Shown in pieces: positions 329 to 60,095 of a DNA stretch of 64,000 bases. This stretch comes from Zingiber officinale (taxonomy: Eukaryota > Streptophyta > Magnoliopsida > Zingiberales > Zingiberaceae), in assembly GCF_018446385.1 (NCBI RefSeq), contig NC_056001.1, positions 7,087,600-7,151,599 on the forward strand, read 5' to 3'. Numbering within the stretch: the stretch's first letter is position 1; every line of letters starts with the position of its first letter. Both the position numbers and the translations under genes were made by a program. The notes under the pieces are model-generated. The model had not been told where the DNA came from, made no database searches, and worked only from the letters and a program-made list of their open reading frames with translations.

Positions 329-1414
329 TCAAGTTTTTAATTTTGAATTAATTAAATTAGTCAAATTATCTTTCTTCAAGAGAATGTATTTAATATTTAA
401 ATTTTCTTTCAATTTCACTTTTATTAGGTTAATTGAATTATCTTTCTTTAATAGCTTATTTTTAAAGTTTAAGTTTTTATTCATTTTTAAATTTGAATTA
501 ATTAAATTATTTGAATTATATTTCCTTAAAGGTTTATCTTTTGACCTTTTATTAATTGTTAATTTTGAATTTTTCAGATTATCTTTATTTAATATGTTAT
601 TTTTAATATTTAATTTTAATTTTGTTAAATTTAGTTTTGATTTTATCAAAGTGTTTGATTTTATTCTTATATTTTCTTTATTTTTTAAGTTGATATAATT
701 AGTGGAATTTATTAGATTATTCTTATCATTAAAATTTAATTTTTTATTAATTAAATTATCTTGGGTTTGGATAGGATTTTCTAGATTAATATTGTCTAGA
801 TTATTAAATAATTTATTAATTTTATCTAGATCAATATTGACCTTGTCATCTCTATCATTTGAGTTTTCAGATTTGTTTAGGTTCAAGTTTGAATTTTTTA
901 AATTAATTGGATTTATTTTATCAGATAATATCCTAGGGGTATTTTTGTAATTATTGTCAACTACATTATTTTCACATATATTTTCAGAAATAACCAGATC
1001 AATGCTCATATTTTTTAAACTACTATTAGCAGGGGTATTTTGGTAAATATCACTAACATTGAGCGCAACCCCTAATTCAGTAGGCTTTTCGATTGGATCT
1101 AACCCGAGTTCGGATTCGATTTTTACTTGATCCTCGAGTTCCATCGGCTCCTCGTGAAGTTTGATCAATTGGGTCCAAAGCTCATGTGCATCTTTGTACT
1201 TTTTTACTCTGCATAAAACATTGTTAGGTAAAACATTACAAATGATTTTACTTACATTTGTGTTTAGTTCTGAGTTCTGAGAAGGTTTTCTCAATATCAG
1301 CCAATAATCAAAGTTTACGCTTCCTAAGAAGCATTCCATTAATCGTTTCCAATAGTTGAAATCTTGATCGTATGGTGGTGGTTCGTGGGGGTTCCGTCCT
1401 TCTTGAAGAGTCAT
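329..1414 (-). CDS. Copia gag-like protein (UBN2-type) with a long Asn/Lys/Leu/Ile-rich tail
   Basis: The frame is open further upstream, but the Met at 1414 (MTLQEGR...) is the likely start because the residues before it are hydrophobic leader sequence with no gag similarity. This gives 361 aa. Residues about 12-105 look like the copia gag UBN2/DUF4219 region: a YW motif after the Pro-rich start, then an ELW-type motif with QLIKLHEE. Residues about 130-361 are almost entirely Asn, Lys, Leu, Ile, Ser and Asp and form degenerate repeats of about 22-25 aa built around LLKKDN and NLIN. No CCHC zinc knuckle is visible. Gag packages the element RNA into virus-like particles; whether this tail allows that is unknown. 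The very AT-rich tail also gives shadow ORFs on the plus strand. Confidence 0.65.
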   Translation of the reverse strand: MTLQEGRNPHEPPPYDQDFNYWKRLMECFLGSVNFDYWLILRKPSQNSELNTNVSKIICNVLPNNVLCRVKKYKDAHELWTQLIKLHEEPMELEDQVKIESELGLDPIEKPTELGVALNVSDIYQNTPANSSLKNMSIDLVISENICENNVVDNNYKNTPRILSDKINPINLKNSNLNLNKSENSNDRDDKVNIDLDKINKLFNNLDNINLENPIQTQDNLINKKLNFNDKNNLINSTNYINLKNKENIRIKSNTLIKSKLNLTKLKLNIKNNILNKDNLKNSKLTINKRSKDKPLRKYNSNNLINSNLKMNKNLNFKNKLLKKDNSINLIKVKLKENLNIKYILLKKDNLTNLINSKLKT

Positions 1415-1759
1415 TATTCTTGCACACAGAGAAACAGAAAAAAAAAATCCCAAGACTTGGTCTTGGATTAGCAGTGCTGAAAAAAAATAATATTTCACTA
1501 TTTTAAAAAAAAGTAATAAAATATTATTAAAATATTAATAAAAATTTAATAAAATATTTTTAATCAATATTATTTCAAAATTTTGAAAATGTAATATTTT
1601 GTCAAAACTAACCAATGGTGAAGAGATGGCGATGTATTTTTCAAAAATAGTTTTGGAGGGGAAAAAAAATGAAAGACGTAAGGTTTTATTTTAAAGACGA
1701 ACGATATCTAATTTTTTTTAAAAAAACATCCCCCTTTGCTTGATTGGTGGTTGCACCAA

Positions 1760-1786
1760 ATCAGAGCGGTACCTGCTCTGATATCA
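1760..1786 (-). promoter_or_regulatory. Primer-binding site (tRNA-Met) inside a perfect hairpin
   Basis: On the minus strand TGATATCAGAGC follows the LTR end by two bases, matching the usual copia PBS TGGTATCAGAGC with one mismatch. The arm ATCAGAGC at 1760-1767 is the exact inverse of GCTCTGAT at 1775-1782, with GGTACCT as loop. The PBS core could therefore fold on itself. Confidence 0.7.
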
Positions 1787-2305
1787 CTTGTTGGATCGTG
1801 AAACGTCGATAGAGGGGGGGGGTGAATATCGATTTGAAAAACAACGTTGAAAAGAGTTAAGCGTAGCGGAATTTAAAAGAACAGACACAGTAATTTTACT
1901 TCGTTCGGAGCCTATGACGACTCCTACTCGAAGGCCCGTACTCCGTGAGTACTTTCGTTGGGCAATCACTATCAATTCGAATGACGATTACAAAATAATT
2001 AAGTACAAGAATTGACAGAAATAAAATACCGAGAAGAGAAGAAGAATTAGACTTAAGAAAGCGCTTTGTCGGAATAGCCTCGTGGCGTCGCAGGAGCGTA
2101 GAGAAGCAGAGCAAGCAGTAGATTCTCAGTTCTGAATTAAAGCTCCCCTCTGACCCTCCTTTTATATGAGGCTCGGGGTGCCCCAGATCCCTTCCGGGCG
2201 CCCTGGTGGGACGTGGCAGGTCCAACCAGCAAGCTTCACGTGGAGACGCGCGAGTTTCGATGAAATTTGCCTCTCGGGCGCCCGGATCCCTTCCGGGCGC
2301 CCGGA

Positions 2306-2481
2306 TTCCTTCCGGGTGCCCGGACCCTGTTTTCCCACAGAATCCGTCTTGCAAGACAAACGTTAGTCCGGAGGCAAATAATGGTCCAGGCAGGCGCCCG
2401 AATTCCTTCCGGGTGCCCGGACCCTGTTTTCCCACAGAATCCGTCCTGCAAGACAAACGTTAGTCCGGAGGCAAATAATAA
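2306..2481 (-). repeat. 97-bp tandem duplication within the LTR
   Basis: The block running from CCGGGTGCCCGG to GGAGGCAAATAAT occurs at about 2312 and again at about 2409, nearly identical. The GC-rich part also has short inverted copies of GGGCGCCCGG. The solo LTR at 22542 lacks this duplication. Confidence 0.75.
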
Positions 2482-2689
2482 GTATGCCCTGCAAAATAGT
2501 TTGTTAGCACAGTTATATAGATAAGCAAAAAAGAGTATGACTTAGATTCCGTCTTTCCGAGACCGGAATCTAGTCACGATCTCAACTTAGATATCCGAAA
2601 TGGATCTAAGCCGGATCGACGCCTAATGTTCCCTTCCCAGGAACGCGTCCTCACAGTCACTCCCCTCCAGTGACTTACCTTACTTACCT

Positions 2690-2940
2690 GCCAGACGTCC
2701 GGTCAGCCTTTCGACCCGTCTGGACTTCTTGCCAAGCGTCCGGTCAGCCCGTCGACCCGCTTGGACTTCTCGCCAGCTATCCGGTCAGCCCGTCGACCTA
2801 GCTGGACTTCTCGCCAGCTATCCAGTCAGCCCGTCGACCTAGCTGGACTTCTCGCCAAGCGTCCGGTCAGCCCGTCGACCCGCTTGGACTTCTTGCCAAG
2901 CGTCCGGTCAGCCCGTCGACCCGCTTGGACTTCGTCTGCA
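2690..2940 (-). repeat. Array of six 41-bp hairpin units in the LTR
   Basis: Units have the form stem, GTCAGCCCGTCGACC, inverted stem, GGACTTCT. The stem pairs differ between units but stay complementary: CCAGACG/CGTCTGG once, CCAAGCG/CGCTTGG three times, CCAGCTA/TAGCTGG twice. See the separate finding on arm covariation. Confidence 0.85.
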
Positions 2941-3111
2941 CACTCGGTCAGAGTGTTAGATCACAACAAACCTAACTTAACCTGATTTGTCATTCATCAA
3001 AACCTGAGTTAAACCGTTAGTGCTAACCGCGCCAATAGGATGAACCTGCATAGGATCTGAATGGAATTGGAGGTGAGTTGACAAAGGAAAATATGAAAGT
3101 TGCGACTGACG

Positions 3112-4057: not shown

Positions 4058-6401
4058 CTACTCGAACGAGGGGAAGGCTTCGTCAGGAAGTTCGTTCAGG
4101 AGACGGGTCTGGTCTAGGAAGTTTTCAGGGGGAGTTGACCGGAGCAAGCCTTTCTCTTGCAACTACAATAAGGCCTCTGCACTACCATAACAAAACATTT
4201 GATTGATGAGGTTGCCTATCTTTAATCCAAACTCTTTGGAGGCTAAGAAGGAGGTATTGTGAGCTGCTAGACGAGAGCTCTCGCCCGCTTGATAATACTT
4301 CAACTCTTCCCTTACCTTAACGATGTCGTCTTGTGCCTTAGCCATCTCTTAGTGAGCGGCCACTGTCTCTGCCTTAGCCGCTGAAAGCTCCACCTACACA
4401 GATTTGAGAGCAGCCTGAACCGCCTCTAACCGCTTTTGAAGGGTGGCCTCTCAATTAGTGCTGGCAGACAAATCTATCGTTTTAGTCGCCGGATCTGTCT
4501 GTAGGGAGGCATGTGCCTTCTTGAGATCTTGTAGTTAGGAGGAGAGGCTAATAACCTCCATGTCCTTCGCCTCCAAGTCGGTTAAGATCTGAACTCGCCT
4601 CATGCCCTCGGACTTAAGCTTGGACTCACTGGTCTTCAAGGTAGTCTCTAAGGACTTCACCTTATTGGACGCTACGTTAGCTAGCTCCCAGGCAGTTCAA
4701 GTCTGGTCCTTTGCCATTTGCAGGTGAGACTAAATTAGGCTCTCGGAGGTTGTCAGGTCAAAAGCACAACCAACAGTCATAGGAGACGCCATCTCTTGAA
4801 TTCGAGTCCTCAAGGACTCATTTTCCCAGTGAAGACCTGTCACGTACTGGGAGAGGCTCAACCCCATGACACAGGTCTGTCAAGAGAGTGGGTAGGATTA
4901 GCAGTATCTCAAGGAGTTGAAAAGAAAGCAGATAAAACTTACCGACACTAGTCGTTGGGAGAACTGGTCGGCCATGTCCAGTTGGGGGCATTCCAAAATT
5001 TGGTTGGCAGTGCTTTTCCACGAATTCGCCAGGGCACCATGAAGTTGCACCTGACCGCAGTTGGGAGAGGTGCTGGCAGAAGGAATGAGACCTAGCACTT
5101 GAAGGGATGGCAGTTGGAACGAAGAAGTGAAGGCATATCGTCCTTTAAGGCGTTCCTTGGGGCGAGAAGAGGAAGCAAGAGCCGAAGCCGAAGGCAGTTA
5201 CTAGCTCGAGGACGGAGGAGCATAAGGTGTAGAAGTCCCGGGCTGGCCTTTTGCTCAGGTGGTTGTCTGCTCCTGGACGGGGATAGGGACAAGAGAGGCT
5301 GCAGCCTCTGACGGAGCTGGAGGGCTCACCCGGGTAGGAGTTTTGGCCTTGGAGGACACCCGCGACATAAGCAACCTCTGTGGTGATGATTGGACTGATG
5401 GAGTAACATGTCGTCTTTTGCGTTGGAGGCGTAGGCACTGCTTGGGAGATGGAGTGGGAACCCTCTCACTAGCAGCTACCTCGTTGAGGAGTGATTCAGC
5501 TTCAGGGGCCTTGGGGTCCCCCAACTGTTGAGAAGTAGTCCCTGTTGAGGCACTGACATGGGGAACCTCTTAGCCAGCCATGATCTCTCTACCCCGCTTC
5601 TACAGGACTGCGCTGGGCATCGTGAAAGAGTCGAGGGCGAAGGCTCGGAACATGATGACTTCTGCAGGCAAAAGGAAATACTTTAGTTAGTGAAGATATG
5701 CTAGGAGAGTCGAGTAATCTTACTAAAAGGTGCGCTCAGGGGCGTCTGATGGGGCATGGCCCGAAAGTATATAACACGCTCTCCCATAGCAGATAAGAGA
5801 GTCTCAGTTGCACTCCATCCAATTTTTCATAGGTGGTCAAACAAGCAGGCTGGTGCTTATGGTCTCGCAACTCAAAGGGAGAAGGAAGATTGAGGCACCA
5901 TTCAATAGGTCAGGTCACATACTCGGGCAATTGGACATAAAAAAAGCGAGACTTCTAGCCCTTATGGGAAGATGACATGCCCTCAAAAAATCTATACCTG
6001 GTCTTGGATTATACCATGAAGATGCCCGGCTTTGAACACTTAAGGGAATAGAAATGGTAAAAGAGTTGAGGAGTCAAAGAAATCTCATACAGTCGACACA
6101 AGATTATCATTCCACACATACCACGGAAGGTATTAAGAGCGAACTGGGACAAGGGGATGTCAAAATACTGACTCAAGGAAGAGAAGAAAGAAGGGACAAG
6201 AAATTGGAGACCGCCGAGAAACTGGTCTTTGAAGAAGGTCTTGAAGCCAGTGGGAGGAGGATACAGATGATCATCGGGTCCTAGAAGGCGAAGCTGATAT
6301 GCTTTGGAAAGCCGAAAATTAGATTGTACAGACCTGAGGTCACTCCTATCAAAATCTGAGAGAAAATATGAGTACCATGGTATCACCGTCTCTCTGGCCA
6401 T
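4058..6401 (-). pseudogene. Antisense extra ORF of Tat-like element (Transposase_28/PF04195-like, coiled-coil C-terminus), broken
   Basis: The likely start is the Met at 6401 (MARETVIPW), after a CT-rich leader; an in-frame extension to 6608 looks like that leader. The first 130 residues resemble the domain called putative gypsy-type transposon (PF04195): YPPPTGFKTFF, then a block with FALNTFRGMCGMIILCRLY. The frame then meets stops that look like single changes, a Gln codon to TAA near 6006 and a Trp codon to TAG near 5960. Coding similarity continues as a Ser/Pro-rich middle (about 5250-5520) and a Glu/Lys/Ala-rich coiled-coil C-terminus (about 4160-4850), ending PSFE near 4060. At least one frameshift is needed to join the parts. 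The product has no established activity; the protein class recurs in plant gypsy elements. Confidence 0.6.
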
Positions 6402-6984: not shown

Positions 6985-7985
6985 TCGGGCTTCCATACTC
7001 TCGCTTTAGCGTGAGTCATAAGTGAGCATGCTCTCGCGCCCAACAACCTCCCGGTCGGTATTCTAGACTCTCGCCTCAGCGTGAGTTATAAGTGAGCCTA
7101 CTCACACACTTCCAGACTTTCGCCTCAATGCGAGTTATAAGTGAGCATGCTCTCACGACCAACGACCTCTCGGTCGGGATTCCAGACTCTTGCCCTAGCG
7201 CAAGTTATAAATGAGCATGTTCTCACGCCTCCAGACTCTCGCCCCAGCGCGAGTTATAAGTGAGCATGCTCTCACGCCTCCACACTCTCGCCCTAGCGTG
7301 AGTTATAAGCGGGCATGCTCTCGCGCCCAACGACCTTCCGATCGGTGTTCCAAATTCTCGGCCCAGCGTGAGTTATAAGTGAGCACGCTCTCACGACCAA
7401 CGATCTCTCGGTTGGGATTCTAAACTCTCGCCCCAGCGTAAGTTATAAGTGAATATGCTCTCACGTCTCCAGACTCTCACCCCAATGTTACTTATAAGTG
7501 AGCATGCTCTCACGCTTCCAAACTCTCGCCCCAGCACGAGTTATAAGTGAGCATGCTCTCACGCTTCCAGCCTCTCGCCCCAGCGCGAATTATAAGTGAG
7601 CATGCACTCACGACCAACGACCTCTCGGTCGGACTTCTAGACTCTCGTCCCAATGCGAATTATAAGTGAGTATGCTCTCACGCTTCCAGACTCTCACCCT
7701 AGTGTGAGTTATAAGTGAGCATGCTCTCACAACCAATGACCTCTCGGTTGGTATTCCAGACTCTCGCCCCAGCGTGAGTTATAAGTGAGCCTGCTCTCAC
7801 GCTTCCAAACTCTCGCCCCAGCACAAGTTATAAGTGAGCATTCTCTCATGACCAACGATCTCTTGGTCGGGATTCCAGACTCTTGCCCCAGCGTGAGTTA
7901 TAAGTGAGCACACTCTTATGCTTTCAGATGCTCGCCCCCGCGCGAGTTATAAGCGAGCTCGCTCTCGCGATCAATGGCCTCCCGG
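6985..7985 (+). repeat. Minisatellite, about 17 units of 49 or 70 bp, hairpin-rich
   Basis: The short unit has the form CAGACTCTCGCCCCAGCGCG, then AGTTATAAGTGAGCATGCTC, then TCACGCTTC. The long unit replaces the last bases with a 21-bp insert of the form GACCAACGACCTCTCGGTCG. Long and short units alternate irregularly. Each unit has self-complementary stretches: CTCGC/GCGAG, GTGAG/CTCAC around CATG, and CGACC/GGTCG. The array lies just upstream of the polypurine tract, so it is probably the 3' untranslated part of the Tat-like element. Confidence 0.85.
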
Positions 7986-8129
7986 TCAGCCTGCCAAATC
8001 ATGGCCTCAATGCAAGCGCCAATAGCACCTGCCCAGAACGATATTGGAGCCACTAAGCAAAAGGCCGAAGGAAGTGATAAGGGGACTAAGGTCTAGTCAG
8101 TCAGACTTGGGTCTCCTTCAGCTATATTT

Positions 8130-21681: not shown

Positions 21682-22541
21682 TAGGACAAATTTTAATTAT
21701 CAACCAGCGCTTTTTCAACCAAAGGCTTTCAATAATTTTGTTACCACTGATATGTCTTCATCTACCACTAGCTCAGCTATATCTGGTTTCATTGCAACGG
21801 CTGATACTGTGGGTGATCCTAATTGGTACATGGATTCAAGAGCAACACATCATTTTACCCCGGATATAAATATGTTGGATTCTGCCACTCCTTTTACTAG
21901 CGCTGAACGTGTGACAGTTGGTGATGGTAAGAACATTGTTATTTCACATATTGGCAATTCAATTCTACATGCCTATTATAATTCTCTCAAGTTGTCTAAT
22001 ATTTTTCATACTCCTGCCATGTCTAAAAATCTCATTAGTGTTTCTCGCTTGTGTCTTGATAATAAAGCTTATGTTGAGTTTCATTCCACATTTTTCTTGG
22101 TTAAGGATCAGGTCACACACAAAGTCCTTCTTCGGGGAATCCTTGATCGTGGTCTTTACAAAGTCTGCCCTCCCACATCGTCTTCTGCTTCATCTTCTAC
22201 ATTGCCTTCAAGTATTTTTTTAGTTCATGTTGCTATTTTCTGTGATCCGAATCTCTGGCACAAGCATCTTGGTCATCCGTCTTTTGAAGTTGTTAATCAA
22301 GTTTTAAGGTCTTGTAATGTCTCTATGAACAAGTCTATTTCTCTTGATTTTTGTAATTCCTGTCAATTGGCTAAGAGCCATAAACTGTCTTTTGCTTTAT
22401 CAAACTCTTGTGCACTCAATAAATTTGATCTTGTTCATACTGACTTGTGGGGTCTTTCACCTATTTCTTCTGTTACCGGTCATAAATATTTCATGTTGAT
22501 TATCGATGATTCTTCCAGATTCTCTTGGTTGTATTTGTTGC
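21587..22541 (+). pseudogene. Copia zinc knuckle, protease and integrase N-terminus
   Basis: The knuckle reads CQICLKLGHTANIYY, where the last Cys is lost. The protease motif reads MDSRATHH, with Arg for the Gly of DSGAT, so the active site is changed. GAG-pre-integrase follows (LWHKHLGH, then CNSCQLAKSH), and then the first part of the integrase core (FDLVHTDLWG, IIDDSSRFSWLYLL). The frame ends where the solo LTR starts at 22542. Confidence 0.8.
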
Positions 22542-23605
22542 TGTTGGTGCGGTTAGCACTAACGGTCTAACCTAGGTTTTGATGAATGACAAAATAGGTT
22601 AAGTTAGTTTTGTTGTTGATCTAACACTCTGATCGAGTGTGCAGGAGAAGTCCAGATAGGTCGACGGGCTGATCGAATGTCTGGCACAAGGCCCAGCTAG
22701 GTCGACGGGTCGACTTGATAGCTGGCACGAAGTCCAAATGGGTCAACGGGCTGACCAGACGTTTGGCACAATGTCCAGCTAGGTCGGAGGGCTAACCGGA
22801 TAGCTGGCGCGAAGTCCAGACGGGTCGAAGGGCTGACCGGACGTCTGGCAGGTGAGTAAAGGTAAGTCACTGGAGGGGAGTGATTGTGAGGACGCGTTCC
22901 CGGGAAGGGAACTTAGGCACCGATCCGACTTAGAACCATTTCGGAACTCTAAGTCGAGATCGTGACTAGATTCCAGTCTCGGAAAGACGGAATCTAAGTC
23001 ATACTCTTTCTATTTTGAATTATGAACTGTGCTAATAATCTGTTTTGCAGGAGATATGAGTGTCTCGGACTAACGTTTTTCTTGCAGGAAGAAATCTGCT
23101 GGAAAACAGGGTCCGAGCGCCCGGGAGGCGAAATTTTATCCCCAACGTCGTTGTGCCACGTGGAGTTCACTGGTTGACTCGGCTACGTCATGGTCGAGAT
23201 GCCCTGAAGGTTCCAGGTGCCCCGAACCTCCTATATAATGAGGGTCAAGGCTGAAGCTCCAAAAATAACAAAAGATTCGATCTCTGGTGCTCCTGCGACG
23301 CTGCTGACAACACTCTACTCTTTAGTCTTACTTTTCTTGTCAGTATTGCTTATTTTCATTAGCTTTCTTGTACTTTAAATTGTAAACAAATACTTCGAAT
23401 TACTAGTGAATTACCCATCGAAAGCACCCTCGTGTGTGAGCCTTGGAGTAGGAGTCAACACAGGCTCCGAACCAAGTAAAAATCACTTGTGTTAGCCTTG
23501 ATATTTTCTTGCTTATTCTTTTTCCGCTGCTTAACTCTTTACGAAAATTTTAGATCGATATTCACCCCCCCCCCCCCCCCCTCTATCGACTTTCACGATC
23601 CAACA
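22542..23605 (+). mobile_element. Solo LTR, same family as LTR 1789-3037
   Basis: The terminal TGTTGG and CCAACA are perfect inverses. The 5-bp target duplication GTTGC is exact at 22537-22541 and 23606-23610. Removing the block rejoins the integrase frame at LYLL with SKDEAY. In this orientation it contains five 41-bp hairpin units (about 22645-22855) and a run of 17 C (23565-23581). Only one LTR is present and no internal sequence, which points to LTR-LTR recombination. Confidence 0.93.
22645..22855 (+). repeat. Array of five 41-bp hairpin units in the solo LTR
   Basis: Stem pairs by unit are CCAGATAG/TGTCTGG, CCAGCTA/TAGCTGG, CCAAATG/CGTTTGG, CCAGCTA/TAGCTGG and CCAGACG/CGTCTGG. These correspond to the inverse of the array at 2690-2940. 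Confidence 0.85.
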
Positions 23606-23610
23606 GTTGC

Positions 23611-24510
23611 ATTCTAAAGATGAAGCATATACCACTTTTGTTACATTTTACAATATGGTGCAGAATCAATTTAACATTTCTATCAAAAGTGTTCGTTCTG
23701 ATTGGGGTGGTGAATTTCGATCCCTCACAAAAAATTTTTCTTCCAAAGGTATTCATTATCAGTTATCATGTGCTTATACTCCAGAACAAAATGGAAGAGT
23801 TGAGCGTAAAAATCATCATGTTGTCGAAATAGGTCTCTCTCTTTTAGCTCACTCTAATATACCTCTTAAATTTGGCCCTATGCATTTTCTACAGTCGTAT
23901 TTCTTATTAATCGGTTGCCTACAAAAATCTTCAAACTCAAGTCTCCTTATAGTGTTCTTTATGATAAGGTGCCGGATTATAACTTTTTTTGAACTTTTGG
24001 TTGTGCTTGTTTTCCCTTTTTACGTCCCTTCAATTCCAATAAGTTAGAATTCAAGTCACGTCAATGTGTATTTTTTGGTTACAACTCTAAACATAAAGGC
24101 TATCTTTGTTTTGACCCTTCCAATTCCAAACTGTATATATCTCGTCATGTGATTTTTAACGAGACATTTTTCCCTTTTAGTTCCCCATCATCCTCTTCTT
24201 CTCTTAATCCTTCGGGTTCTTCACAAATCATTACACCCCTTCCTATCTTTAATTATTTTCAACCATCTGTCTCCCTATCACCACCCTCTCATACTTGTCT
24301 ACTTCCTACAACATCTTCTACCCAGTCTTCTTCTTGTCCTTCAGCCCCATCTCCACCGCCACCTTCTCATGCTTCACCATTTCTTACAACATTTTCTACC
24401 CAACCTTCTTCAACCTAGTCTTCTTCTAATCTTCCTGCCCCACCTCCACCTCCTCTTCAGTCTACTCCTTACACTTCCTCTTCTTCTCATCCCTCCAACC
24501 CTTTAGACGT
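23611..24510 (+). pseudogene. Copia integrase C-terminal part and linker
   Basis: After the solo LTR the frame continues: SDWGGEF (normally TDNGGEF, so the second Asp is kept), then YTPEQNGRVERKN, which holds the catalytic Glu. A frameshift near 23900 moves the rest to other frames. From 24170 to 24500 comes the Ser/Pro-rich linker that usually lies between integrase and RT. Confidence 0.75.
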
Positions 24511-55794: not shown

Positions 55795-56860
55795 TAAAAG
55801 TAAGTCACTATAACTATAATTTTTTGATTTCACCGAGTTAAAACTATGATTGTCTAATCAGGATGATGATCATGATTACACTTGTTGTCAAAAAAAAATA
55901 CTCAATCTAGAAAGTATGCATCACTTGGTCTTCCAATTTCACTCAGTTAGAGCTATGATCGTCTAATTGGAGTATTGACCAAGATAGTATTCCTCTTAGA
56001 GAGATACTCGACTTAGGAAGCATACATCCCTTGGTCTCCCAATGCACAATCTAGAAAGTATGCATCACTTGTTGTCTAATTAGGATGATGATCATGATTA
56101 CACTTGTTGTCAAAAAAATGCTCAATCTAGAAAGTATGCATCACTTGGTCTTCCAATTTCACTCAACGAGAGCTATGATCGTCTAATTGGAGTGTTGACC
56201 AGGATAGTATTACTCTTAGAGAGATACATGACTCAGGAAGCATACATCCCTTGGTCTTCCAATCTCATCAAGCCAAAGCCGCAGTCATTTGATTGGAGTG
56301 TTGACCATGATTGTATTACTCTTCAAGAGATATTCGACTCAAGAAGTATACATCCCTTGGTCTTCTAATCTCATTGAGCTAAAGTTGTGGTCATTTGATT
56401 GGAGTGTTGACTAAGATTGTATTACTCTTCGAGAGATACGCGACTCGGTCTTCCAATCTTATTGAGCCAAAGTTGTGGTTGTCTGATTGGAGTGCTGACC
56501 AAGATTGTATTATTCTTCGAGAGATACTCGACTCAAGAAGTATACATTCCTTGGTCTTCCAATCTTATCGAGCCAAAGTTGTGGTTGTCTGATTGGAGTG
56601 TTGACCAAGATTGTATTATTCTTCAAGAGATACTCGACTTAAGAAGTATACATCCATTGGTCTTCTAATCTTATCGAGCCAAAGCTGTGGTTGTCTGATT
56701 GGAGTGCTGACCAATATTGTATTATTCTTTGAGAGATACTCAACTCAAGAAGTAAACATCCCTTGGTCTTCCAATCTTATCGAGCCATAGCTATAGTCGT
56801 TTGAATGAAGTGCTGGCCATGATTGCATTTATTCTTCGTGAGTCACTTGACTCAATTCTT
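55795..56860 (+). repeat. 106-bp tandem repeat array, about nine units
   Basis: Unit form: TTCCAATCTTATCGAGCCAA, a GTTGTGGTTGTCTGATTGG piece, GTGTTGACCAAGATTGTATT, CTTCGAGAGATACTCGACTC, then AAGAAGTATACATCCCTTGG. The first units are more divergent and carry a CTCAATCTAGAAAGTATGCA variant. Small frames here (56395-56668) are repeat by-products. Confidence 0.85.
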
Positions 56861-58377: not shown

Positions 58378-58904
58378 AATTTTTCATTGACCATCAGGAT
58401 AAATCAAGAAAGTACATATTGTTATGGTTGATTTGTAGCTAGAGGGGGGTGAATAGCTCGTCGCGCTTCGTTTGTTTGCTTCGTTGTTGTTGATATGCAG
58501 CGGAAAGACTCGAAACAAGACTCACAACACTAACACAAAGGATTTACTTGGTATCCACCTCAAGAAGATGTGACTAGTCCAAGGATCCACACACTACACG
58601 CTCATCCACTATAAAAACATTCCTTTACGATATCTACCGAAGGCGAAGAAGCCTTATACACACTCTCAATACAACAAGAAAAGAAGAAGAAACAAATACA
58701 CAGAATCTCTTACAAGATTTACATAAATGCAAACCCTAGCTCTCTGCTTCTCTTTGTGTGGAACGCCTCTTGACCTTGGAAGTGCAGCAACACTTTGCTC
58801 CAAGAAGCTTCAAGAAATAGCGGAGAGTTGTGGAGAAGCTCGCGTGAAGATAGGGAAGAATCTCGCGAAGAACTCCCGAAGAAATCACTCGCTAACAACT
58901 TTAA

Positions 58905-59245
58905 CCTGCACAACGGTCACCTCCCAATCGATTGGGGAGGTTTGAATCGATCGGATGATCAATTCAGAGCGTCTCTGTGCTTTGCTGGAGAACCTTGAAT
59001 CAATCAATCGATCGATTCAGTGTTTATCGTGACTCGTGTGATAAACCCAGCCCCAATCGATCGGTTGATCGGTTGTCGTTGCCCAATCGATCGACTGATC
59101 GATTGGGCAACTCTCTGTGCTCGAGACATTTGCTCCCAATCGATCGGTCGATCGATTGGGTCGCTGCTTGTCACAGTACTCTCCCAATGGATCGGTTGAT
59201 CAATTAGGCTTAGGTCAATCGATCAGCTGATCGATTGCCCCAACC
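58905..59245. repeat. CAATCGATCG hairpin cluster
   Basis: At least seven short inverted repeats of the form CCCAATCGATCGactGATCGATTGGG, with small loop and stem changes (CGGTTGATCGG, CGGTCGATCG, CAGCTGATCG). Confidence 0.8.
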
Positions 59246-59289
59246 TTGACTTGCCTAAACTTAAGTCTAAAGTTCCTAAACCCAACATC

Positions 59290-59640
59290 CGGTCAATCCT
59301 GACCTATCGGGACTCCTTCTGCCTAGCATATGGTCAACCTTGACCTGCTGGAACTTCTTCACCAAGTGTCCGGTCAATCCTTTGACCCACTTGGACTTTT
59401 TCTAGTGCCAAGTGTCCGGTCAACCTTGACCCACTTGGACTTACCGTCTCGTGCCAGGTGTCCGGTCCTCCATGACCCACTTAGACTTCCACCAGATGTC
59501 CGATCACCCTTGACCCATCTGGATTTTCTCGTGTCAAGTATCCGGTCAATCCTTTAACCTACTTGGGTTTCCCAACACCAGGTGTCCGGTCAACCTTGAC
59601 TCACCTGGATCTCCACATGTCTGGCTTCACTACCAGGTCT
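59290..59640. repeat. Array of about seven 37-46-bp hairpin units
   Basis: Units contain GTCCGGTCAACCTTGACC between two inverted stems: CCAAGTG/CACTTGG, CCAGATG/CATCTGG, CCAGGTG/CACCTGG and CAAGTA/TACTTG. The core GTCCGGTCA is the same as in the arrays at 2690 and 22645. Confidence 0.8.
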
Positions 59641-60095
59641 TTCCATCTTCCTGGCTTCACTCACCAAGACTTTCACATAGCTTCACTTACTAGGATTTTC
59701 ACCTGACTTCGCTCACCAGGATTTTCACCTGTCTAGCTTCACTCAGTAAGTCTTTCACCTGATTTCACTCACTAGGATTTCCAACTGCCAAACTTCACTC
59801 ACTAGATTTTTCACCTGGCTTCACTCACCAGGATTTTCTCTTGCCTAATCTTCAGTTAGGACTTTCCAGTCAAGTATATGGTCAATTTTGACCTACTTGA
59901 CTTTTTTCACATCAAATTGGTCATCCCTTGACCAGAGGGGAATTGTATCAATAATCTTTCCAATCGAATGATTGCATCTGCAATCTTCATGTATTGTCAA
60001 ACATCGAAACTCAAACATCAAGACTCAAGCTTGAGCCAACTCAAGCTTAGTCAACAACGTCAATCTTAACCTAAGGATATTACACCAACATATAT

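Follow-up and report, generated by a model that had tools for sequence, protein, structure and literature searches.

Hairpin arrays with covarying stems in the LTRs of Sirevirus-type retrotransposons of ginger

Six consecutive 41-bp units in a long terminal repeat each form a hairpin whose outer stem differs from unit to unit and whose two arms nevertheless match. What keeps the arms complementary: selection on a fold, copying of one arm into the other, or mere descent from a few palindromic founders? The units lie in a 64,000-nucleotide stretch of ginger DNA, here called the window. A sequence-only reading had described them as an array with covarying stems, and this is confirmed: the outer 7-bp arms are perfectly complementary in 6/6 units, and fall into three stem types (GACG once, AGCG three times, GCTA twice). 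Its statement that all six share one loop word holds for four units, identical over the 19-nt central word; unit 1 is two bases off, and unit 4 one base.

Read on the antisense strand, a unit of this array (array A) comprises a 7-bp outer stem, a 3-nt bulge (TCC), an inner GGTC/GACC stem, a loop, and then a spacer starting ACTT. The general unit of the fold has a 7-bp stem, a 3-nt bulge, an inner stem of 4-6 bp, a small loop, and a short spacer that again starts ACTT.

The array and its element

The identification of array A as the U3 hairpin array of a Sirevirus-type Ty1/copia LTR retrotransposon is well supported (Table 1). In the sense direction the array occupies LTR positions 102-347, inside U3 and about 525 bp upstream of the TATA box. 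A 98% copy in the same orientation lies 6.2 kb off, probably in the 3' LTR of the same element. The pol of this element falls outside the window, and its gag-like frame gives the weak copia match of Table 1. A search of Rfam with window positions 1700-3100 gave no family match at E up to 1.

Table 1. Features of the window that bear on the hairpin arrays
Feature	Position	Strand	Remarks
5' LTR A, Ty1/copia, carrying array A	1789..3037	minus	termini TATTGG...CCAACA; same-strand PBS and gag-like frame follow downstream
Hairpin array A, six 41-bp units	2691..2936	minus (element sense)	unit starts 2691, 2732, 2773, 2814, 2855, 2896; spacing 41 bp
Hairpins of array A	2691-2723, 2732-2764, 2773-2805, 2814-2846, 2855-2887, 2896-2928		
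Second hairpin cluster, GGGCGCCCGGA-AGGGA-TCCGGGCGCCC type	2170..2330	minus	adjoins TATA box
TATA box TATAAAA	2160..2166	minus	LTR A position 872 of 1249
Poly-C tract near LTR A 3' end	1806..1832	minus	inside its own inverted repeat TCGATA/TATCGA
LTR junction AGTGA and PBS TATCAGAGC	1775..1788	minus	compared with PMC2829016
Gag-like open frame of the element	329..1498	minus	copia gag PF14223 matched weakly (E 0.024), short of the family cut-off
Solo LTR B, close relative of LTR A	22542..23605	plus	GCAAC on both sides
Hairpin array B, five units	22652..22848	plus (element sense)	
LTR C, different family	58420..60090	minus	imperfect flanking repeat
CAATCGATC..GATCGATTG palindrome cluster in LTR C	58925..59245	minus	
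Hairpin array C, eight units	59281..59616	minus	same fold as array A; GGTCA..TGACC core
Decayed short-hairpin array in LTR C, loop CTTCACTCA	59620..59860	minus	second unit type
Ninth, isolated unit in LTR C	59870..59908	minus	same fold

Directly upstream of the LTR A TATA box, window positions 2170-2330 hold a GC-rich perfect hairpin (12-bp arms, loop AGGGA) together with its relatives. Solo LTR B seems, as read from the sequence, to be inserted in the coding region of another retroelement (22000-24500, minus strand); LTR C, with its imperfect flanking repeat, is probably also a solo LTR. A tandem array of about 49-, 70- and 119-bp units (TCCAGACTCTCGCCCCAGCGCGAGTTATAAGTGAGCATGCTC) at 6989-7987 is possibly another palindromic LTR array, and a tandem repeat of about 106 and 212 bp (CTTGGTCTTCCAATCTCATCGAGCC) occupies 55850-56854.

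Sireviruses, in the account given in passages of PMC2829016, have the PBS TATCAGAGC, an ATTGG or AGTGG junction, and a poly-C signal about 21 bp from the LTR end. The PBS of the window element is exact; its AGTGA is one base off; and LTR A ends in a C9 tract, TCTA, and then 21 bp. A scan for further junctions, which looked for a C5 run together with a PBS at most one substitution off (the poly-C of these other junctions is thus no independent test), found 14 LTR junctions in 13 of the 37 sources scanned. Twelve of the 14 have the exact PBS; the intervening sequence is AGTGG in ten and ATTGG in one.

The same passages of PMC2829016 describe repeated motifs: palindromic, high-copy sequences with a CGG-CCG core in the upper LTR, upstream of a TATA box that stands near mid-LTR, after the motifs; the definition includes at least eight copies. 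Beside that of LTR A, a TATA box was found at position 691 of 1064 in LTR B, with weaker candidates in LTR C (1433) and in L043 (1447). Set against the minimum of eight, the palindromic, clustered units number six in array A, five in array B, and eight in L029.

Covariation of the stems

Taken alone, the three stem types of array A are thin evidence for covariation; the evidence is strong once arrays B and C, which share its fold, are added. A covariance model built from 20 window units (arrays A, B and C) recovers them, the next match in the window having E = 0.01. Watson-Crick pairs fill 75 of the 80 variable-stem cells of these 20 units; 20,000 shuffles gave a mean of 38.1 and a maximum of 58. 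The 13 distinct arm pairs give 47 of 52 (mean 25.6, maximum 41). When the structure is held fixed, pairing reaches 91.2% of 260 cells, and sliding the partner by 1 to 3 columns leaves at most 43.1%. Four of five covariation measures lie above nearly all shuffles in the same fixed-structure comparison, with two-sided changes at 8 of 13 pairs (reached by 2/500 shuffles); in their number of pair types these window units do not stand out (95/500). Within array families, the bulge and loop vary less than the stems. That the loops are conserved and the stems freer favours a fold that is recognised.

Free folding is a different measure. For array A folded with its flanks, stability does not clearly exceed that of shuffled sequence (z -1.4; 7/100 shuffles as good), and array C gives z -4.4 with 0/100 shuffles as good.

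Whole-unit shuffling in the array A family

The genome searched was the window's own assembly (3.09 Gb, 211 contigs). Array A as query gave 43 matches, 40 of 2,423 candidates being scored. A loose pattern gave 261 matches in 45 sources, many of them by chance; only the 205 that had another unit beside them (35 sources) were retained, and 56 were discarded.

Outer stems are perfect in 129 of the 190 units that stand in arrays, and about four stem types account for 128 of the 129: GCTA (53), AGCG (51), GACG (21) and GACA (3), plus one other. The order of units varies among copies, with 19 distinct orders from 35 arrays. Few stem types in varying order indicate that the units of this family have been shuffled whole, and most of the apparent covariation inside it is such reshuffling, with pairing kept without new compensatory change. 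Mismatches occupy 82 of 1,330 outer cells. Transitions make up 60 of the 82, the pattern expected of decay, and resident copies seem to lose their pairing through changes on one side at a time. Alternation of neighbouring stems, tried as a sign of selection against cross-pairing, showed no effect (adjacent pairs equal in 14/81, with 15.6 expected).

These counts of stem types, unit orders and transitions are what would be seen if a few old palindromic units had been duplicated and reshuffled, the pairing being inherited with nothing now keeping it. As a full account of the hairpins this is decidedly doubtful. The compensatory signal comes from other families and from an orthologous unit, not from the array A family, and it speaks against pairing by descent alone. 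Among the 100 units listed of the 2,818 in the genome that carry the loop TCCGGTCAACCTTGACC (controls 0), there are 52 distinct arm pairs, and these still pair in 288 of 364 cells (mean 209.6, maximum 251). At the orthologous unit the change is two-sided: the 100 listed of 4,312, sorted by eye, comprise CTTAGCA/TGCTAAG (79), CCTAGCA/TGCTAGG (13), intermediates (5 and 1) and others (2).

A third objection comes from a hairpin that occurs singly. Near the LTR 3' end, an inverted repeat surrounds the poly-C integrase signal; each LTR has one, which is therefore beyond the reach of unit shuffling. Its stems differ between LTR families and are mostly complementary (TCGA, AGCGC, CGGC, AGC). Across 36 sites in the window and the fetched loci, the four nearest positions pair in 30 and three pair in 2; wobbles or mismatches occur in the other 4 (two sites in L003, one each in L004 and L029). 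The eight distinct arm pairs have 24 of 32 cells paired (mean 15.3; reached by 22/5,000 shuffles). This family-specific matching is supportive, though on few distinct types.

Compensatory change across the genome

Hairpins of this kind abound outside the array A family. An unselected sample of twenty 10-kb stretches, chosen by coordinate, yielded 40 matches at E up to 0.05 in 9/20 stretches, or about one unit per 5 kb. It also held further hairpin types with a like spacer: short stems around CTTCACTCA; CCTAA-CATCCCAG-TTAGG; and alternating CCAAGT-CTCCAT-ACTTGG and CCAAGC-TCCCT-GCTTGG hairpins. About thirty hairpins were seen by eye in the solo LTR L043 (4547-6540), including a cluster of nine GATCGGT..CCGATC palindromes. 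The conclusion that array A is one of very many U3 hairpin arrays in the genome is well supported. Viral contigs were scanned for one loop, and none was found.

The loop of array A itself has 38,826 copies in the genome (controls 0). At 64 of 100 listed places, those with letters, 431 of 448 stem cells pair (mean 304.7, maximum 345), and the 18 distinct arm pairs give 110 of 126 (mean 82.3, maximum 103). The 100 listed units with loop TCCGGTCAACCTTGACC have 597 of 700 stem cells paired (shuffle mean 448.6, maximum 492), and the signal holds in both unit classes: 451/511 (maximum 430) and 146/189 (maximum 145).

The largest count concerns one stem pair of the CTTCACTCA unit over the whole genome: G-C in 69,400 copies, A-T in 35,987, and mismatches in 4,731 and 2,392. 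Thus 105,387 of 112,510 exact copies (93.7%) are paired, with an odds ratio of about 221, these being counts of copies and not of independent events. The sequence-only reading had named an absence of any excess of paired over unpaired change, genome-wide, as the outcome that would count against it; the excess is present. (The pattern CCTGGCTTCACTCACCAGGACTT, a 23-nt hairpin unit, accounts for 69,400 exact copies in the 3.09-Gb assembly, which makes it a very large amplification of a single LTR feature.)

In several LTR families, then, the paired change of stems greatly exceeds chance, and pairing is therefore kept by selection or by copying. These were the two origins that the sequence-only reading had proposed; its alternative stands for the several families in which pairing exceeds chance, but within the array A family the paired changes are mostly whole-unit reshuffling.

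Copying would require no selected function: in reverse transcription or replication, the nascent strand would fold back on itself and one arm would serve as template for the other. That both arms change together at several pairs fits such a process, and so does the presence of several unrelated hairpin sequences in the same LTRs, as a sequence-blind mechanism would give. We nonetheless regard it as unlikely. Copying alone does not predict a loop and bulge more constant than the stems, and one-sided intermediates exist at the orthologous pair. Moreover, mismatched units recur as same-strand pairs separated by 4.6-5.9 kb, which from their spacing seem to be the two LTRs of one element (two mismatches were followed, and the 100 listed places for each showed 6 such pairs by eye). 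If so, a mismatch common to both LTRs has passed through a replication cycle uncorrected, which argues against efficient arm copying. This suggests that copying, if any, does not repair every unit in each cycle.

Sense RNA or DNA

The reading that we favour, tentatively and with considerable room for doubt, is a chain of hairpins in the sense RNA, the fold being selected while the elements are active and the loops being presented to a protein. The covariation suggests that the fold would be kept rather than the stem sequence, and the one-sided changes in resident copies that it would be kept in active elements and lost after insertion. The array would form a hairpin chain in the sense transcript, U3 standing at the 3' end of the genomic RNA. 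Conserved purine-rich loops may then be presented to an element or host protein, with stems free to vary if they still pair, and with arrays that would change by whole-unit shuffling.

In a stem, a C>T change on the sense strand leaves G.U and a G>A change leaves A.C; an excess of G.U would indicate pairing of sense RNA. At two genome-wide outer-stem pairs, G.U and A.C stand at 4,731:2,392 and 288:166, a 1.7-2.0-fold excess, and inner stems of one family give 37:11, for which shared descent is partly responsible. Smaller outer-stem samples give 32:28, 44:42 and 7:6, and the orthologous pair 1:5. The excess of G.U could also come from a strand bias of mutation. In 29 copies, CpG decay scored as C>T versus G>A is 22:28 in the stems and 102:69 in the rest of the LTR, the latter becoming 26 to 27 sites when only those seen in one or two copies are counted. 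Strand-specific wobble was accordingly dropped as proof of sense RNA, the evidence being mixed.

Composition and fold energy also bear on the strand. Unpaired bases on the sense strand are 74-86% purine in 14 of 20 arrays and 58-67% in the other six. The raw fold energy favours the sense strand in 17/20 arrays; this is mostly composition, and shuffles show the same. Relative to the shuffles, the sense advantage is at least 2 sd larger in 2 of 18 arrays (C type ii and C GATC) and at least 2 sd smaller in 4, and fold energy was rejected as evidence for the sense strand. With dinucleotide shuffles as the reference, the antisense fold has the better score in 14/18 arrays, an equal one in 1 and a worse one in 3, which weakens the sense-RNA reading. 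As a whole, the strand evidence is mixed. The unexceptional free fold of array A and the lack of an Rfam match for window positions 1700-3100 also count against this reading.

The fold scores, in failing to favour the sense strand, agree with an account at the level of DNA: the dyads, upstream of the promoter, would act as regulatory sites in duplex DNA or as cruciforms, and would keep their symmetry because dimeric proteins or cruciform binders read them. The place of the array, in U3 upstream of the TATA box, suits this account, and the inner GGTCAA..TTGACC halves resemble the W-box core. Such dyads are an improbable explanation all the same. A dimer site would be expected to fix its half-site, and the outer stems change yet stay complementary; the 3-nt bulge makes the units asymmetric; and the G.U excess at two pairs is unexpected for DNA, unless it is mutational. 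That the repeated motifs of Sireviruses, which are dyads, have been discussed as possible regulators, in part of PMC2829016, also counts for the DNA-level account.

Relation to known systems

The sequence-only reading knew of no structured LTR array of this kind. That claim falls: palindromic, high-copy repeats in Sirevirus LTRs are already published, as passages of PMC2829016 make clear. Like those motifs, the ginger units are high-copy palindromes clustered upstream of a TATA box, in elements with the PBS TATCAGAGC. Unlike them, to the extent that these passages describe the motifs, the 41-bp unit is longer, asymmetric through its 3-nt bulge, and devoid of an exact CGG-CCG dyad; its stems vary among units in a matched way; and one ginger LTR can carry several unrelated hairpin types. 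The published account gives one consensus per element, and unit-to-unit covariation does not appear in these passages.

The 41-bp array is set apart from the published motifs because it is without the CGG-CCG core: in the 41-bp unit, GGTC pairs with GACC inside variable arms. The core is present instead in clusters of GATCGGTC..GACCGATC palindromes in L043 (5152-5510), L048, L037 (8236-8472) and L034 (9890-10000), where the nearest outer pairs also change together (CT/AG versus TG/CA).

In maize, work by Bousios in Genome Research (2016, 26:226) reportedly found clusters of palindromic motifs in Sirevirus LTRs, with strong predicted structure and an excess of small RNAs. The motif of that 2016 study is reportedly CACCGGACNNNGTCCGGTG, and differs from the 41-bp unit. 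Passages of PMC10760457 cite the 2016 study as tying Sirevirus LTR palindromes to strong secondary structure and small RNAs.

The hypervariable 3'UTR repeats of Tat/Ogre elements, as treated in passages of PMC7004042, are alike in forming short tandem arrays near the 3' end of plant LTR retrotransposons. They differ in belonging to Ty3/gypsy elements, in lying in the 3'UTR downstream of gag-pol, and in having monomers that vary in sequence and length; hairpins go without mention in these passages. PMC10578108 was set aside, its passages concerning another RNA.

Literature on structured or palindromic LTR arrays led to the Sirevirus work and, judged by title, included none on unit-to-unit covariation in LTRs; a search with the letters of the unit returned unrelated titles only. 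As far as these searches reach, unit-to-unit covariation is an addition to the known palindromic arrays of Sireviruses.

Implications

Sirevirus LTRs have been known to contain palindromic repeats since 2010, and in maize such repeats have been linked with small RNAs. Hairpins of this sort may attract silencing, and their retention by an element is a puzzle. Because single units occur in tens of thousands of exact copies in this one genome, compensatory change can be counted pair by pair. Moreover, these copy numbers allow the features kept in replication to be separated from decay after insertion, and make the questions of fold or sequence, and of RNA or DNA, countable.
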